A DNA stretch of 47,775 bases from contig QMKX01000011.1 in assembly GCA_003643835.1 (NCBI GenBank), forward strand, positions 1-47,775. Reading direction: 5' to 3'. This stretch comes from Campylobacterota bacterium (lineage in GTDB: Bacteria; Campylobacterota; Campylobacteria; Campylobacterales; Arcobacteraceae). This document shows, one piece after another, positions 39,522 through 47,775 of this stretch; positions within the stretch are counted from its first letter, which is position 1; each line of letters begins with the position of its first letter. The notes under the pieces were generated by a model, which was not told the origin of the DNA, did no database searches, and was given only the letters and a program-made list of their open reading frames with translations. The translations under genes and the position numbers were made by a program.

Positions 39522-40760
39522 ATGGATAAAAATATCAAAAAAGTAGTTTTAGCATATAGTGGCGGGCTTGATACATCGGTCATACTAAAGTGGCTACAAG
39601 ACGAATATGATGCTGAAGTTATCACATTTACCGCTGATTTAGGGCAAGGAGATGAGGTCGAACCAGCACGAGCCAAAGCATTAAGCTGCGGTATCAAGCC
39701 TGAAAATATATTTGTGTTAGATATCCAAGAGGAGTTTGTGCGAGATTATGTATTTCCTATGTTTAGGGCAAATGCTATATATGAAGGTGAGTATTTGCTT
39801 GGCACCTCAATAGCTAGACCACTTATAGCCAAAAAGCAAATAGAAATTGCCAAACAAATGGGAGCCGATGCAGTATCACACGGAGCTACTGGCAAAGGCA
39901 ACGACCAAGTGAGATTTGAGCTTGGATACTTAGGGCTAAATCCAGATATCACCGTGATAGCTCCATGGAGAGAATGGGACTTGAATAGCCGTGAGAAATT
40001 ACTAAATTATGCAAAAAAACATGATATAGATATAGACAAAAAACATCTAAATGAAAGTGGCAAGCCAGTAGTAAGTCCATACTCTATGGATGCAAATTTG
40101 CTACATATATCGTATGAGGGACTACACCTTGAAAACCCTATGAACGAACCAGAAAATAGTATGTGGCTATGGACTACTGACCCCCAAGATGCTCCTGATA
40201 TACCAGAATATATAACTATTGGTTATAAAAACGGCGACCCAGTGAGACTAAATGGCAAAGAGTTGTGCCCAACTGTTATGCTACGAACCTTGAACCAATA
40301 CGGTAACAAACACGGTATCGGTCGTATAGATATAGTAGAAAACCGATATGTAGGTATGAAAGCTAGAGGTTGCTACGAGACACCGGGCGGCACTATCATG
40401 CTTAAAGCCCACAGGGCTATAGAAAGTTTGTGTCTTGATAGAGAAGAAGCCCACCTAAAAGACGAGCTAATGCCACGATATGCCAAACTTATATACAATG
40501 GATTTTGGTATTCAAGTGAGAGAGAGATGCTGCAAAAAGCGATAGATGAGACACAAAAGTTTGTGCAAGGTGATGTCAAGCTTAAGCTATACAAAGGCTC
40601 TGTGCAAGTAGTGGGTCGCCAGTCTGATGTGTCGCTTTATAGCCAAGAGCATTCAACTTTTGAAGAAGATGAAGTATATGACCAAAAAGATGCCGAAGGC
40701 TTTATACGACTAAATGCTTTGAGACTTATGATAAAGGGTCAAAAAAGGGGCAATAAATAG
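39522..40760 (+). CDS. argG: Argininosuccinate synthase
   Basis: 412 aa, full length. It joins citrulline and aspartate with ATP in arginine synthesis. It has the N-type ATP pyrophosphatase loop [55 protein letters not shown] and [11 protein letters not shown]. The start has AAAAAGGAAG upstream and its own promoter. A restriction-modification island begins three nt after its stop codon, so argG is the left boundary of that insertion. Confidence 0.96.
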
Positions 40761-40763
40761 GCG

Positions 40764-41561
40764 ATGAAGTTCAACGATATCGATATGAACCACTGGAAAG
40801 ATAGCGATATAAATACAGATAGCCTGTGGATGATAAACGCTCGTGACAAAAGTGGCAAACACAAAAATATATATCATGGCAACTTTGTGCCACAAGTGCC
40901 GTATCAACTCCTACAAAGATACACAAAAAAGGGCGATGTAGTATTGGAGCCGTTTATGGGAAGTGGCACGACACTTTTTGAGTGCGAAAAACTTCATCGT
41001 AGATACATAGGGTTTGATATAAATCCACAGATGTTGGATTATGTGAGTGAAAGTATGGGCGATGGAGATTATGCGGATAACTTTTATATAAATCATTGTA
41101 ATTCGCTTGATGAACTACAAGTAGATGAAAATATATCAAAAGCAAACGATAAGTTTGGCACCACAGCAGTGCAATTTGTGTTGATGCACCCACCATATAT
41201 GGATATAGTCAAATTTACACAAGACGAAGACGACCTGTCGCAAATCGGTGATATTCATAAATTTATGATAAAATTCAAAACAATATGCCAAAATAGTCTC
41301 AAGCACTTGGAAAAAGGGCGGTATTTTGCTGTGGTCATAGGCGATGTGTATAAAAACAGCGAAGTCGTGCCTCTGGGGTTTTATTGTATGGATATGATAA
41401 AACGAAACTTCAAAGTCAAGCTAAAAGGCACGATAGTCAAAAACATAGAGGGCAATCGTGGCAAACTTGGCAGTGGTGGTATATGGAGATATAGGGCTTT
41501 GAGTAGTGACTATTATATATTTAAACATGAATATATTCATGTTTTTAAAAAGGAGTTTTAA
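40764..41561 (+). CDS. DNA amino-methyltransferase (N4-cytosine or N6-adenine)
   Basis: 265 aa. SAM-binding motif I VVLEPFMGSGTTLFE (62-70 core), YIGFDINPQ (motif II-like) and the catalytic motif as HPPY (142-145, in FVLMHPPYMDIVKFT), where most enzymes have DPPY or SPPY. Motif I precedes the catalytic motif. The short N-terminus ends in YHGNFVPQVPYQLL. The methylated base cannot be decided by eye. It starts three nt after argG without a strong Shine-Dalgarno and overlaps the next nuclease gene by one nt, so it forms an operon methylase-nuclease-methylase. Codon use is like the chromosome (ATA-rich). Confidence 0.82.
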   Translation: MKFNDIDMNHWKDSDINTDSLWMINARDKSGKHKNIYHGNFVPQVPYQLLQRYTKKGDVVLEPFMGSGTTLFECEKLHRRYIGFDINPQMLDYVSESMGDGDYADNFYINHCNSLDELQVDENISKANDKFGTTAVQFVLMHPPYMDIVKFTQDEDDLSQIGDIHKFMIKFKTICQNSLKHLEKGRYFAVVIGDVYKNSEVVPLGFYCMDMIKRNFKVKLKGTIVKNIEGNRGKLGSGGIWRYRALSSDYYIFKHEYIHVFKKEF

Positions 41562-42685
41562 TGGCAACAACACATGTGTTTGTAGTAGATAGCACTACAT
41601 TTCAATACCATTTAGAATATATGTTTGCAGGAACTGGAGCAAACAACGATGTAATTGATTTTAATAATTCTTCAAATACATCTTTGCATTATGCAACTGA
41701 AAATAAATTACTTGGTATGATAGCAGATGGTAGCAGGATAAGAGCTAATGACTTTGTAGTTTTTTATTTACAGCAAAATTTTTCACAAGGAATTAGAGAA
41801 GGAAAATTTTATGGTATTTTTCAAGTTACTCAAACTTTATTTTTAGACAATAACAATAACACTCAATTTTTAAGACAACAATTAAATAAATCATTAACTT
41901 TTAGAATTCTAATTCAGCCATGCCAAGTATATGCTGAAGGTGTAACAGAATGGGAAGCATTAGATAAAATTAGACATATTCAATCTCCAAATCAGATGTT
42001 ATGGAGTTTAATCTATAGAAAACTAAAAGGCAATCGTGGCAATACGATGATTACTATTTATGAAAGTGAAAGACTTTTTCAATTAATTAGAAACAAAAAT
42101 AATCAAAATGATTTAATGGGAAATAATTTTACATTTGATATTGGTACTCAACAAATAGTTTCAAATATAAATGCATATAGTTATAATAGAAGAGTTGAAC
42201 AAATTAATATTTTACCTAGACTAATTAATAAATATAGTTGTGGTTTGCAATTTGAAACTCATCTACAATCATATATTTTGCAAAATATTGAAATAATATT
42301 CAATAATGAATGTTTAGAATGGATTGGAAATGAAGTCTCTTGTGGCGTTGGAATGCAAAAAATTGATATATTGCTGTCTAGCATTATTAATGATATTAAT
42401 AGAAAAATAATCCCTATAGAATTAAAATCAACAGAGGCTTATCCTGAAATCATTGTTCAACTTCAAAGATATATCGATTGGCTACAACAATATTATATAC
42501 CTAATAGACCATCAAGTATAGAACCAGTTATTGTATCAAGAAAAATAGTTGATAAAGCTACACAAGACTATATTAATTTAATCAATAGTTTCAACATGTT
42601 TAATGCTAATAATAATTTATATATCAAATATATTGAATTTTCTATAAACAATAATAATATTAATTTTCAAGAGATTATTTATTAA
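41561..42685 (+). CDS. Putative restriction endonuclease with EVE/PUA-like and NucS-like nuclease domains
   Basis: 374 aa. The N-terminus (about 1-130: HVFVVDSTTFQYHLEY, IRANDFVVFYLQQ, GKFYGIFQVTQTLFL) looks like an EVE/PUA-type base-reading domain. The C-terminus has FETHLQSYIL (Glu232), GVGMQKIDILL (Asp269) and KIIPIELKSTEAY (Glu287, Lys289), a PD-(D/E)XK nuclease of the DUF91/NucS type. Between two methyltransferases, and overlapping both by one nt, it is the natural endonuclease of the operon. Its codon and base use differ from its neighbours: Ile mostly ATT rather than ATA, many AAT, hence later acquisition is likely. An EVE domain could read modified cytosine, so modification-dependent cleavage is an alternative. 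Confidence 0.65.
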   Translation: MATTHVFVVDSTTFQYHLEYMFAGTGANNDVIDFNNSSNTSLHYATENKLLGMIADGSRIRANDFVVFYLQQNFSQGIREGKFYGIFQVTQTLFLDNNNNTQFLRQQLNKSLTFRILIQPCQVYAEGVTEWEALDKIRHIQSPNQMLWSLIYRKLKGNRGNTMITIYESERLFQLIRNKNNQNDLMGNNFTFDIGTQQIVSNINAYSYNRRVEQINILPRLINKYSCGLQFETHLQSYILQNIEIIFNNECLEWIGNEVSCGVGMQKIDILLSSIINDINRKIIPIELKSTEAYPEIIVQLQRYIDWLQQYYIPNRPSSIEPVIVSRKIVDKATQDYINLINSFNMFNANNNLYIKYIEFSINNNNINFQEIIY

Positions 42686-43692
42686 TGAACTACATAGGCT
42701 CCAAACTCAAGCTTTCGTCTTGGATACTTGAAGTTGTCAAAGCTCATGTGGGTGATGATCTATCTGATAAGGTGTTTTGTGATATATTTGCTGGCACTGG
42801 TATAGTAGGACGGACTTTCAAAAAGGAGGTGCGACAAGTCATAGCAAACGACTTGGAGTATTATAGCTATGTTTTAAACAAAAATTATATAGCAAACCAT
42901 AAAAATATACAAGACAAGCACAGATATATAGACAAGCTAAACAGTTTGCCATTGATAGATAGTGGATTTGTATATCAAAACTATTGTCGTGGTAGTGGTA
43001 GTGGTCGTCTGTATTTTAGCAATACAAATGGCAAAAAGATAGATACAATTAGGACAAAAATCAAGCAGTGGAAAAAAAGTGGTGAAATTAGTCCAAATTT
43101 GTATTATTTTTTACTAGCTTCACTTTTAGAAAGTGCCGACAAAGTAGCAAATACCGCTTCTGTATATGGAGCATATCTCAAACATATCAAAAAATCAGCC
43201 CTCAAAGAGTTAGTGCTATATGGAGCTCCCTTTGAGACAAACGACAACACCCACGAGGCACACAACACAGACAGCAACGAACTTATAAAACAAATAAGCG
43301 GAGACATACTCTATCTTGACCCACCATACAACCACAGACAATATAGCTCAAACTATCATATTTTAAACACTATTGCTTTGTATGATGAGTTTATACCAAA
43401 AGGCAAGACAGGTTTGCCAGAATACAATAGGAGCGATTATTGCAAAAAAGGTGAGGTGAAAAACAGTTTTGAAAACTTGATAAAGCATGCAAAATTCAAA
43501 CATATATTTCTAAGCTACAACAACGAAGGACTCATGAGAGCAAGTGAGATAAAAGATATCATGATAAAATACGGCAAATATAGCTTACAGACAAAAGAGT
43601 ATCAGCGATTTAAGGCAGACAAGACGACAAGCAGAAATCATAAAGCCACTCATACCAACGAATATCTACACATATTGACAAAGACAAGGTAA
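42685..43692 (+). CDS. D12-class N6-adenine DNA methyltransferase
   Basis: 335 aa, alpha-class. Motif X MNYIGSKLKL at the start, motif I FCDIFAGTGIVG (31-42), a target-recognition middle part, and the catalytic motif IV ILYLDPPYNHRQYSSNYH (DPPY 212-215), followed by KHIFLSYNNEG. It methylates adenine in the specific site of the system. Its start overlaps the nuclease gene's stop by one nt. Two methyltransferases of different class beside one nuclease suggest an asymmetric (type IIS-like) recognition site, each enzyme protecting one strand. Confidence 0.88.
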   Translation: MNYIGSKLKLSSWILEVVKAHVGDDLSDKVFCDIFAGTGIVGRTFKKEVRQVIANDLEYYSYVLNKNYIANHKNIQDKHRYIDKLNSLPLIDSGFVYQNYCRGSGSGRLYFSNTNGKKIDTIRTKIKQWKKSGEISPNLYYFLLASLLESADKVANTASVYGAYLKHIKKSALKELVLYGAPFETNDNTHEAHNTDSNELIKQISGDILYLDPPYNHRQYSSNYHILNTIALYDEFIPKGKTGLPEYNRSDYCKKGEVKNSFENLIKHAKFKHIFLSYNNEGLMRASEIKDIMIKYGKYSLQTKEYQRFKADKTTSRNHKATHTNEYLHILTKTR

Positions 43693-43706: not shown

Positions 43707-44090
43707 ATGAAAAAGATACAAAACAAACTAGAAAAAATATGTAAATATCTCAAAAAAAGCAATCTGTGTTTATCATCAAGCCAAAACGATGGCAGAATCA
43801 ACTCTATATTAAATGAAGATGAGATACTAAAACAGATAGAAAAAAAGTTTGATATAGATGTCCCAATGGCAAGAAACTGGGCAGATTTTTATATAGACAA
43901 CATGCCGATAAACATAAAAGTAGCGGACAAAAAAACAGGGCAAAATATAAATATAGTTCAAGCAGTAAACCGATACTTGATATTTATGTTTAGTGTTATA
44001 ACATTGGCGCTGTTGTTTGTGCCATTGTTCAAAAAGGACAAGCATATGATACACGATATACTCACCAGTAGATCAGTAGTTAAAACTTGA
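43707..44090 (+). CDS. Chimeric ORF: restriction endonuclease N-terminus joined to RDD-family C-terminus
   Basis: 127 aa. Residues about 1-72 (SSSQNDGRINSILNEDEIL, then VPMARNWADFYIDNMPINIKV) resemble the start of type II restriction enzymes with the pattern NDGR..NE..ARxWxDF...PxNIK. Residues about 72-127 (DKKTGQNINIVQAVNRYLIF, a membrane helix at 88-107, then KKDKHMIHDILTSRSVV) match the C-terminal end of RDD membrane proteins. The join lies in KV-x-DKKT, where both parents have similar sequence. It lies 14 nt after the adenine methyltransferase, whose own endonuclease it may once have encoded. Neither half is complete, so it is probably non-functional, though the frame is open. I am sure of the RDD tail, less so of the endonuclease part. 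Confidence 0.6.
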   Translation: MKKIQNKLEKICKYLKKSNLCLSSSQNDGRINSILNEDEILKQIEKKFDIDVPMARNWADFYIDNMPINIKVADKKTGQNINIVQAVNRYLIFMFSVITLALLFVPLFKKDKHMIHDILTSRSVVKT

Positions 44091-44132: not shown

Positions 44133-45467
44133 ATGACATTTGACGATTTAAACTTACACGAAAAGATACTCAAAGCAGTGAAAGAGCAAGGCTACACACA
44201 GCCTACACCCATACAAGCTAAAGCTATACCGCTAGTGCTGGAGGGCAAGGATGTGCTAGCAGGAGCTCAAACTGGCACTGGTAAGACCGCTGGATTTTCT
44301 CTGCCTATGCTAGAGCTTATGATGAAAAAAGATATCAAAAAAGGGCGGCACCAAGTTCGCTCACTTGTCCTCACACCCACAAGAGAACTAGCCGCACAAG
44401 TAGGCGAAGATATAGCAACATATAGCAAGTATCTACCGTTTACATCTGCTGTGGTGTTTGGTGGAGTTGGTATAAACCCACAGATAACAAAGATAAAAAA
44501 GGGAGTAGATATACTAGTAGCCACTCCAGGACGACTTCTTGACCTTGTAGGACAGGGCAAACTTGACTTGTCTTGCGTAGAGTTTTTTGTGTTGGACGAA
44601 GCTGATAGGATGCTTGATATGGGGTTTATACACGATATCAAAAAGGTATTAGCTATACTTCCACCATACAAACAAAACTTGCTGTTTTCTGCTACATTCT
44701 CAGATGAGATCAAAAAATTAGCAGACAAACTTCTAAACAACCCTACACTTATAGAGGTAGCCAAAAGAAATCAATCTGCTGATAATATATCTCAAGTAGT
44801 ATATCCAGTGGACAAAAATAGAAAACAAGAGCTACTATCGCACTTGATACGAAAAGAAAATTGGCAGCAAGTTTTGGTATTTACACGAACTAAACACGGA
44901 GCAAACAGATTAGTAAAAGAGTTGATAAGAGATGATATAAATTCAGCTGCCATACACGGTAACAAATCACAAACTGCCAGGACTAAAGCTTTGGCTGATT
45001 TCAAAGACAAAACTATAGCCGTGCTTGTAGCTACAGATATAGCAGCTAGAGGTATAGATATAGACCAGTTGCCTCATGTCGTAAACTATGAACTACCAAA
45101 TATAAGCGAGGATTATGTCCATAGGATTGGGCGAACAGGACGAGCAGGCAACAGCGGGGAGGCTATTAGTATAGTATGTGTCGATGAGTTGGATTATCTT
45201 AAAAATATAGAAAAACTTATAAAAAAACCTATCAAAAAGATACACGAAAATGGGTTTGATATAGACCCAAATATAAAAGCCCAACCGATACAAAATGGTC
45301 GAGGTGGCGGACAAAGAGGTGGTAGAGGCAACTCTCAAGGCAGAAACCAAAACAGAAACCAAAAAAACTTTGGAGGCAGAGGTAATATCAGCTCACGAGG
45401 TCAAAGAGGCGGAGGCAACTCTCAAGGCACAGCAAACTCCTCAAGAGGTGCAAACAGAGGCAGATAG
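44133..45467 (+). CDS. rhlE: DEAD-box ATP-dependent RNA helicase, RhlE type
   Basis: 444 aa. All helicase motifs are present: Q motif [83 protein letters not shown] and [10 protein letters not shown]. The last about 55 residues are an RG-rich, disordered RNA-binding tail ([24 protein letters not shown]). RhlE-type enzymes help ribosome assembly and mRNA turnover, especially in the cold. Shine-Dalgarno AAAAAAGGA. Located just beyond the restriction-modification island, so it may be part of the original flank. Confidence 0.92.
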
Positions 45468-45492: not shown

Positions 45493-45621
45493 TGTGATAG
45501 GTGCCCTAAAGTTTGAAGTTTTTATAAACCTATCTTGCAATCTTGCAAAACTAAAATTTTCTGTCATAAAGGAGACGATAGACAGGTCTGTATTCTGGCT
45601 TTTTATTGTATTGTAGATTGT

Positions 45622-45643
45622 GTTAAGGCAAATATGTTATAAT
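45622..45643 (+). promoter_or_regulatory. Promoter of the TIGR03546/03545-like gene
   Basis: GTTAAG (45622-45627), 8 nt (GCAAATAT), GTTATAAT (45636-45643). A leader of about 95 nt follows with a small hairpin ATAACC-AAA-GGTTAT (45651-45665). Confidence 0.7.
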
Positions 45644-45745
45644 AAACTCGATAACCAAAGGTTATATATCGCCACAAAAATAGCACTGACATTGATACTA
45701 GAAAGATATCTAAATATGCCTAAAGCTATAACAAAAAGGAAAATT

Positions 45746-47775
45746 ATGAAAAGTTTATTTGATCTATTTTATGCACTAAATAGCGCAGAAAAATCATACC
45801 AGTTGAGTCTCGCTTTGGCTTTTGGTGCAGTTGGTGGGTTTTTGCCATTTTTTAGTTTAACTACTGTTTTGCTATTTTTGGCGGTGTTTATGATAAATAT
45901 GCCTATAGGTATATTTATGGTATTTATGGTATTTTTCGCTTCAGTGGGAGCTTTGCTTGATCCTGTGTTTGCAGTAGTTGGACACGAGATACTCACCTAT
46001 GGAGCTTTGAACTCATTTTTCACCACACTTTACAACAACCCAGTAGCACTTTGGTTTGGATTTAATCATACTATAACTATGGGTAGTGTAGTGGTGTCGG
46101 TGGTGCTATTTTATCCTTTGTATCTTTTGTCTAAGTTTTTGTTTGAAAAGTATAGGCAGCTTATGCAGCTGGGCTTTGAAAATAAAAAGTATCTAAAATG
46201 GCTAAATCCATACAGAAAACAAAATGAAAAAAAACAAAAACAAAAGTTTATGCGATGGTGGGGTTTGGGTGTCATAGCTGTCATATATGCAGTTTTGGCG
46301 ATATTTTTCGTGCTATTTTTCGATCCACTTGTGCGGTGGGGTGCTTCGTATGGCTTAAGCAAAGCAGTGGGTAGCAGTGTGTCTATAGGCTATGCGAAAA
46401 GCAATTTTGCCGATGTTCGTATCACTTTTGGGGATATCAAGTTTGAAACAGATAGCCAAAAAAACAGTATCAAAAACTTCACTCTTGACCTACACGGCAA
46501 AAATTTATTGAGAAAAAAGCTCGATATTGAGTATATAGCATTTAAAGACATAACTATAGTAGATAAGCCTGTCATCAAAGAGCCAGCACAGGATATAGAT
46601 TTTGCCGATAAACTCAAAAATAGTTTGCCTAAAATCGAAGATATCTTTGATAGAGAAAATTTAAACTCCATAAAAGAAGCAAAAGCTATCAAAGGTAGAT
46701 TAGATGATATCAAAACTTCGTGGCAAAGCATAAAGACAGATAAAATAGATAAGTTTGACGACAATATATCGCAAATAAAACAAGACTACAAAGCTATAGA
46801 AACTATGGCAAAAGATATCAAAAATATAGAGGATATTGACAAGATAAACAAAAAAGTTAAACAACTCAAACAAAAGACAAAATCTATCAAAAATGATGTA
46901 GCGACTATAAAACAAAAATACAAAGATGACAAACAAACTATAAACGATGATTTCAAATCTATCAAAACTTTGCCACAAAAAGATATAGACAAAATTATGT
47001 CAAAATACAGCACCAAATCTGGCGGTAAGTTTGATTTTGTAGCACAATATATAGACCCCTATGTAGCACAATATAGTGCTATGGGTCAAAACTATTATGA
47101 CAAAGTCAAACCATACATACCACAAGATGCCAATGACACCAAAAACGATGTAGTTCGAGCAAAAGGACGATACATAAGATACAAGATGTTCTCAAATATG
47201 CCTACGATTACCATGCGAAAATTTGAAGCAAATGTTATAAAAGCAAACTCAAAATATAGTAGCAAGATTTTGAATATATCAAGCGACCCCAAACAACTAG
47301 GAAGCTATCCGTCTGGATATATCAACGGAAGCTCCGATAGTTTTGAGAGTTTGGATGTAGCTATCACTTATGATGGGCTACTCAAGCTAAATACCAAAGT
47401 AGCAGGAATATTTAAAGATAGCATTGAGTTGGATAAAAACCTAAAACTAAACAACTCGAAAATAGCTATAAACTCACTGACTACTGTTCAAAACTGGACT
47501 AAAATAGACACCGCTTTGAAAATAAATTTTGTCAATACAAAGTTTGTATATGCCAAAACCAAAACCAAAACAGATGAGATAGTAGGTAAGATACTCGCAA
47601 AAATTGACAACTTTGATATAAATGGCGGTATCTATGTAGATATCAAAAACCCAAAAGAGACACGCATAAATATAAACAGCAACTTAGACAAAGCTATAAG
47701 CGATGGTTTCAAAGCACAATTGGACGAAGAGTTAGATATATTTAAAACTAAACTAAAAGCCAAAATAGACGACAA
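45746..47775 (+). CDS. TIGR03546/TIGR03545-like large envelope protein (3' end beyond the window)
   Basis: At least 676 codons, open to the window end. The start ATG 45746 has AAAAAGGAA upstream. The first about 165 residues (SLALAFGAVGGFLPFFSLTT, several membrane helices, LLDPVFAVVGHEILTYGALN) resemble TIGR03546/DUF2062. The rest has one more membrane helix (GVIAVIYAVLAIFFVLFFDP) followed by a long extended region with coiled-coil stretches rich in Lys, Ile and Asp (about 280-420) and repeated 'Y-x-x-x-KPYI' and 'SKIL' motifs, like TIGR03545, an AsmA-like periplasmic protein. Such proteins are thought to work in envelope or lipid transport. In other bacteria I recall these as two adjacent genes; here they seem to be one reading frame. 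Confidence 0.7.
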   Translation, partial: MKSLFDLFYALNSAEKSYQLSLALAFGAVGGFLPFFSLTTVLLFLAVFMINMPIGIFMVFMVFFASVGALLDPVFAVVGHEILTYGALNSFFTTLYNNPVALWFGFNHTITMGSVVVSVVLFYPLYLLSKFLFEKYRQLMQLGFENKKYLKWLNPYRKQNEKKQKQKFMRWWGLGVIAVIYAVLAIFFVLFFDPLVRWGASYGLSKAVGSSVSIGYAKSNFADVRITFGDIKFETDSQKNSIKNFTLDLHGKNLLRKKLDIEYIAFKDITIVDKPVIKEPAQDIDFADKLKNSLPKIEDIFDRENLNSIKEAKAIKGRLDDIKTSWQSIKTDKIDKFDDNISQIKQDYKAIETMAKDIKNIEDIDKINKKVKQLKQKTKSIKNDVATIKQKYKDDKQTINDDFKSIKTLPQKDIDKIMSKYSTKSGGKFDFVAQYIDPYVAQYSAMGQNYYDKVKPYIPQDANDTKNDVVRAKGRYIRYKMFSNMPTITMRKFEANVIKANSKYSSKILNISSDPKQLGSYPSGYINGSSDSFESLDVAITYDGLLKLNTKVAGIFKDSIELDKNLKLNNSKIAINSLTTVQNWTKIDTALKINFVNTKFVYAKTKTKTDEIVGKILAKIDNFDINGGIYVDIKNPKETRININSNLDKAISDGFKAQLDEELDIFKTKLKAKIDD

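Follow-up and report, generated by a model that had tools for sequence, protein, structure and literature searches.

A chimeric open reading frame joining an endonuclease start to an RDD end in a restriction-modification zone of a Campylobacterota genome

Introduction

Genome rearrangements that make or break genes are known from Helicobacter pylori, where they include DNA duplication associated with inversion and the insertion of islands in restriction-modification (RM) genes, as outlined in PMC3120642, citing Furuta et al. 2011. Here, we compare with that system an open reading frame (ORF) built from pieces of two described protein families. One is the PHROG 3978 type II endonuclease family, with Campylobacterales and cyanophage P-HM2 (ADO99926.1) relatives, whose alignment shows D25, G26, R27, E34, P50, R53, W55, D57, P64 and N66 to be invariant and K68 nearly so. 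The other is the RDD family (PF06271), the C-terminal part of which is matched by residues ~70-127 of the ORF.

The window, the whole stretch of 47,775 nucleotides that was analysed, is contig C11 of genome G000 (1.43 Mb, 40 contigs). It was compared with three genomes of the same genus: G001 (GMC7.metabat2.111) and G002 (GMC3_bin_14), both metagenome-assembled Arcobacteraceae, and G003. Features of the window are numbered on contig C11, while coordinates with the prefix L refer to other loci (L035 in G002, L038 in G000, L040 and L088 in G001).

Results

The ORF (RE'::RDD', 43707..44090, + strand) encodes 127 residues. Its first part (43716..43921, +), delimited by blastn to L035 and by the family alignment, corresponds to codons 1 to ~68 of a 198-aa endonuclease, through the conserved D...PxNxK motif. 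The intact parent gene lies at L035:12162-12788 in G002, and the N-terminus of its product aligns to head residues 4-71 with no gaps. The two share 80% amino acid identity (67/84 residues) and, over 66 codons, 94.4% nucleotide identity. A search of PHROG assigned the head to phrog_3978 (endonuclease, E 3.6e-7, residues 6-86). The invariant and near-invariant positions of the family alignment listed above fall within the retained part of the enzyme, and of these the head has D25, G26, R27, E34, R53, W55, D57, P64, N66 and K68, and all of the N-terminal motifs (DGR, E, R-x-W-x-D and PxNxK) are in place. Judged by its residues, the D57...N66-I-K68 stretch looks like a PD-(D/E)xK-type motif.

Homology to the endonuclease runs through the NIKV motif and stops there, near residue 71 of the 127. 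The second half of the enzyme, with its DN, YYAL, NGNNLPFQ and W motifs, is missing. Compared with the PHROG 3978 endonucleases (full length ~198-210 aa), the fusion is without two thirds of the protein. It is also without their usual neighbor: an Eco57I-type methyltransferase gene (~390 aa) adjoins the endonuclease gene in all 19 other loci with flanking sequence (G002 and 18 more) and is absent beside the fusion. The head occurs once in G000. Phage matches to the endonuclease were limited to distant cyanophage and Mycoplasma-phage enzymes, and a plasmid search with it gave no match. Neither the intact endonuclease nor its family profile retrieved a match from the PDB; an AlphaFold model of the intact endonuclease, computed from a two-row alignment, was set aside at a pLDDT of 39.5.

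The remaining part of the ORF (43914..44090, +) derives from the 3' end of an RDD gene, ~58 codons that include the last predicted membrane helix. Residues 68-120 match positions 78-136 of the 137-position Pfam model (E 4e-4), with a score of 21.1 bits, just below the gathering cut-off of 24.1. The fusion lacks the N-terminal half of the RDD domain; the intact RDD copy of G000, on contig C8, scores 59.1 bits over model positions 4-137. The tail is 81% identical to the end of an intact 130-aa RDD protein (48/59 residues), and its nucleotide identity is 80% to the genome's own C8 copy and 86% to the G001 and G002 genes. No similarity links the parent endonuclease to the parent RDD proteins, which makes the ORF a true chimera rather than one ambiguous domain. 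The first-pass annotation, made from the window's letters alone, had proposed such a composition, and the recovery of a separate parent for each half upholds it.

The same annotation had put the join at KV-DKKT, where the parents are locally alike. This was correct to within a few codons: the exact seam is an 8-bp microhomology, ATAAAAGT, at 43914..43921 (+), common to the fusion, the endonuclease gene and the RDD genes. Around the seam, the sequence is ...CCGATAAATATAAAAGTCACC in the G002 endonuclease gene, ...CCGATAAACATAAAAGTAGCGGAC in the fusion and ...ATAAAAGTAGTAGA in the RDD genes (GTGGTAGA in G002). When one point is picked at random in each of these parents, at least 8 bases are shared with a frequency of 0.00047, so a chance match is unlikely. 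Overlaps as short as this typify illegitimate joining mediated by microhomology. A 10-bp sequence, ATTATGAAAA, flanks the RE'-RDD'-rhlE piece at either end (~43704 and ~45743); as an insertion trace, the pair is a hint that is weak in AT-rich start-codon contexts.

The start codon of the ORF derives from its flank. At the native endonuclease start (43716), ATG has become ATA, and the fused frame begins nine bases earlier, within the 3' flank of a D12 methyltransferase gene. There is no clear Shine-Dalgarno sequence just upstream of this start. An AGGA box precedes the G002 endonuclease gene and is missing before the fusion ORF because the left join sits at the start codon. A sigma-70 scan of the fusion region found promoter-like sites no more numerous than in shuffled sequences. 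We found no second genome with the joined architecture in any of the sets searched, which covered 104 family genomes, species genomes reached with peptide patterns, and viral contigs; full-length homologs with the same arrangement, which would have spoken for a genuine family, were thus not among them.

In the window, the ORF is part of a series of genes that starts with argG (39522..40760, +; NCBIfam NF001770, E 1.8e-188). Next come an N6/N4 DNA methyltransferase of 265 aa (40764..41561, +; PF01555, E 2.2e-23; PADLOC MTase_II), a probable restriction endonuclease with EVE-like N-terminal and NucS_C-like domains (41561..42685, +) and a D12-class N6-adenine methyltransferase of 335 aa with an intact frame (42685..43692, +; PF02086, E 1.5e-56; 87% to its G002 homologue). 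The fusion ORF is then followed by the DEAD-box helicase gene rhlE (44133..45467, +; NF007882, E 8.1e-204) and by a DUF2062-like gene that runs to the window's end (45746..47773, +; PF09835, E 2.5e-4, below cut-off). The order in G002 is argG, endonuclease, Eco57I-type methyltransferase (M394), D12 methyltransferase and DUF2062-like gene, while in G001 the space from argG to the DUF2062-like gene holds four other genes, among them a PIN-domain gene and one with DUF4325. By these gene orders, argG and the DUF2062-like gene are the left and right fixed flanks of a zone of RM and accessory gene turnover, filled differently in each species, in which rhlE is a newcomer. The earlier view of rhlE as the fixed right flank has to be given up, since the DUF2062-like gene closes the interval in both G001 and G002.

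Further observations were made in and around this zone. The 41561-42685 endonuclease gene lies between two methyltransferase genes and has weak database matches only (PF01939, E 1.5e-4, and PF01878, E 0.12, both below cut-off; NF002008, E 2.4e-6), possibly representing a little-described RM architecture. What G002 retains of the window's N6/N4 methyltransferase gene is its first 27 codons, and these are joined to the endonuclease gene (L035:12740-12880), an independent rearrangement of the same zone. In G001, argG is RM-flanked too: immediately upstream of it come genes for an NgoBV-type endonuclease and a C5 methyltransferase (L040:2294-4296), with a D12 methyltransferase fragment beyond the pair. 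Between rhlE and the DUF2062-like gene, the window holds a decayed relic of a ParE-toxin gene with an internal deletion of ~86 bp (45639..45737, +). It aligned to the ParE gene at L088:232-555 (PF05016, E 1.4e-12) with a score of 61, as against at most 29 in 100 shuffles. An intact pair of this kind is present in G001 (L088:59-555), and a promoter-like sequence that recurs in congeners precedes the relic (45618-45644). The 265 bp after rhlE, sister loci included, contained no tRNA or Rfam match. The relic and the 27-codon remnant are leftovers expected from repeated turnover.

In all four genomes of the genus, G000 included, an RDD gene follows frr-pyrE. The order is frr-pyrE-RDD-rhlE in G001 and G002, elsewhere in the genome than the argG zone; in G003, frr-pyrE-RDD is present and rhlE is separate. 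On contig C8 of G000, the intact frr-pyrE-RDD is followed by a convergent petC rather than by rhlE. This adjacency (L038:9384-9799) was not found in G001 or G002, where petC is on other contigs, and it is a genome rearrangement breakpoint next to RDD. Moreover, marC follows rhlE in G002 and sits on contig C27 in G000. The positions of petC and marC show that gene order around RDD and rhlE differs at several points between G000 and its sisters.

The fused tail has kept the RDD-rhlE adjacency and a spacer of ~42 bp, both common to G001 and G002, which indicates that tail and rhlE arrived as one piece. The rhlE of the window is the sole copy of its orthologue in G000 and is 90% identical to the G001 rhlE of frr-pyrE-RDD-rhlE. 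In the comparison of RDD sequences, private changes numbered 13 in the fused tail, 16 in the C8 copy and 6 in the G001/G002 pair, leaving them nearly equidistant, and G003 was too distant to root them. The piece carrying the tail and rhlE is either a second RDD-rhlE of the G000 line (a duplicate) or an import from a relative.

Synonymous divergence differed between the two halves. For the head against G002, dS was 0.20 (95% interval 0.06-0.40), lower than in every one of 148 overlapping stretches of equal length from rhlE, argG, the D12 methyltransferase and the DUF2062-like gene. For the tail against the genome's own C8 RDD, dS was 0.79 (0.37-2.0), as large as the between-species distance. 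Taken together, these values suggest that the divergence of the two RDD sequences probably predates the join by a wide margin, on small samples whose intervals just touch. A simple recent copy from C8 is also inadequate for a tail that differs from it by 20%, and an older duplicate or an import is needed. Both halves had a low dN/dS (0.16-0.19), which in the tail mostly reflects its history before the join and is no proof of present function.

Discussion

In the window, the RDD'-rhlE piece abuts what is left of a type II endonuclease gene, with the break directly behind its D...PxNIK codons. The ORF is chimeric and in all likelihood a non-functional relic of microhomology-mediated illegitimate recombination, left when RDD'-rhlE entered the RM zone. 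A piece with the 3' end of an RDD gene and rhlE would have entered the zone and met a broken endonuclease gene, and the two would have been joined at ATAAAAGT. The join may have removed the 3' two thirds of the endonuclease gene and its partner methyltransferase; we infer that the latter was lost in the same event, in a zone whose gene order varies between species. The open frame could have been kept by chance, at 1 in 3. The fusion product would be without function, and selection at the locus would act on rhlE, now the only copy in the genome, and not on the fusion.

A different origin had been suggested at the outset, in which an island insertion or a later deletion cut into an RDD gene resident beside argG. 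The location of the RDD tail at the edge of RM genes, directly before rhlE and with a spacing like that of G001 and G002, agrees with this proposal, and the part of it that places a chimera at an RM-gene edge stands. Its other parts do not, as rhlE is not the resident right flank, and in both G001 and G002 the interval from argG to the DUF2062-like gene contains neither an RDD gene nor rhlE. With RDD housed instead in frr-pyrE-RDD(-rhlE), intact on C8, a resident gene cut beside argG is very unlikely. We regard as less likely still an assembly chimera, in which a misjoined contig would show a fusion absent from the cell. G000 is in 40 contigs and the sister genomes were assembled from metagenomes, but at the join the parts have just 8-12 bp in common, a length below that of the usual assembly k-mers. 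Furthermore, a difference of 20% separates the tail from the one other RDD copy of G000, neither the head nor the rhlE orthologue has a second copy in this genome, and the flanks on both sides match the zone of the sister species.

The open frame, the invariant residues kept in the head and the low dN/dS in both halves could also be read as signs of a new gene with a function, its product being an endonuclease fragment anchored in the membrane. Such a gene would have to work without the second half of the nuclease, the N-terminal RDD helices, an obvious Shine-Dalgarno sequence or a homologue of the same architecture, which makes this reading extremely improbable. A more specific idea, in which the fused protein is made as a nuclease-core fragment tethered to the membrane and has a role of its own, such as that of a regulator or dominant-negative partner for the neighboring methyltransferase or endonuclease, is the most remote of those considered here. 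Most probably, the fusion is genomic debris of an ordinary sort and not a newly made gene that works.

With both parents and the 8-bp seam known, the locus offers a well-resolved case of Campylobacterota RM zones creating accidental gene fusions. For annotators, it means that an RDD match and an endonuclease match here belong to one probably dead ORF. If it were true that the fused protein is made and kept, the finding would matter more, and only then.

Set against the H. pylori rearrangements, as far as these are recounted in PMC3120642, the locus shares the bacterial order, RM genes as the place of insertion and partial gene copies at rearrangement ends. The intact RDD gene of G000 likewise borders a junction specific to that genome, with petC as its neighbor. 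Unlike in the H. pylori case as described there, the two RDD copies of G000 are 20% apart, and a recent duplication in one candidate inversion does not fit. The event is ordinary in kind and, at this locus, well documented.
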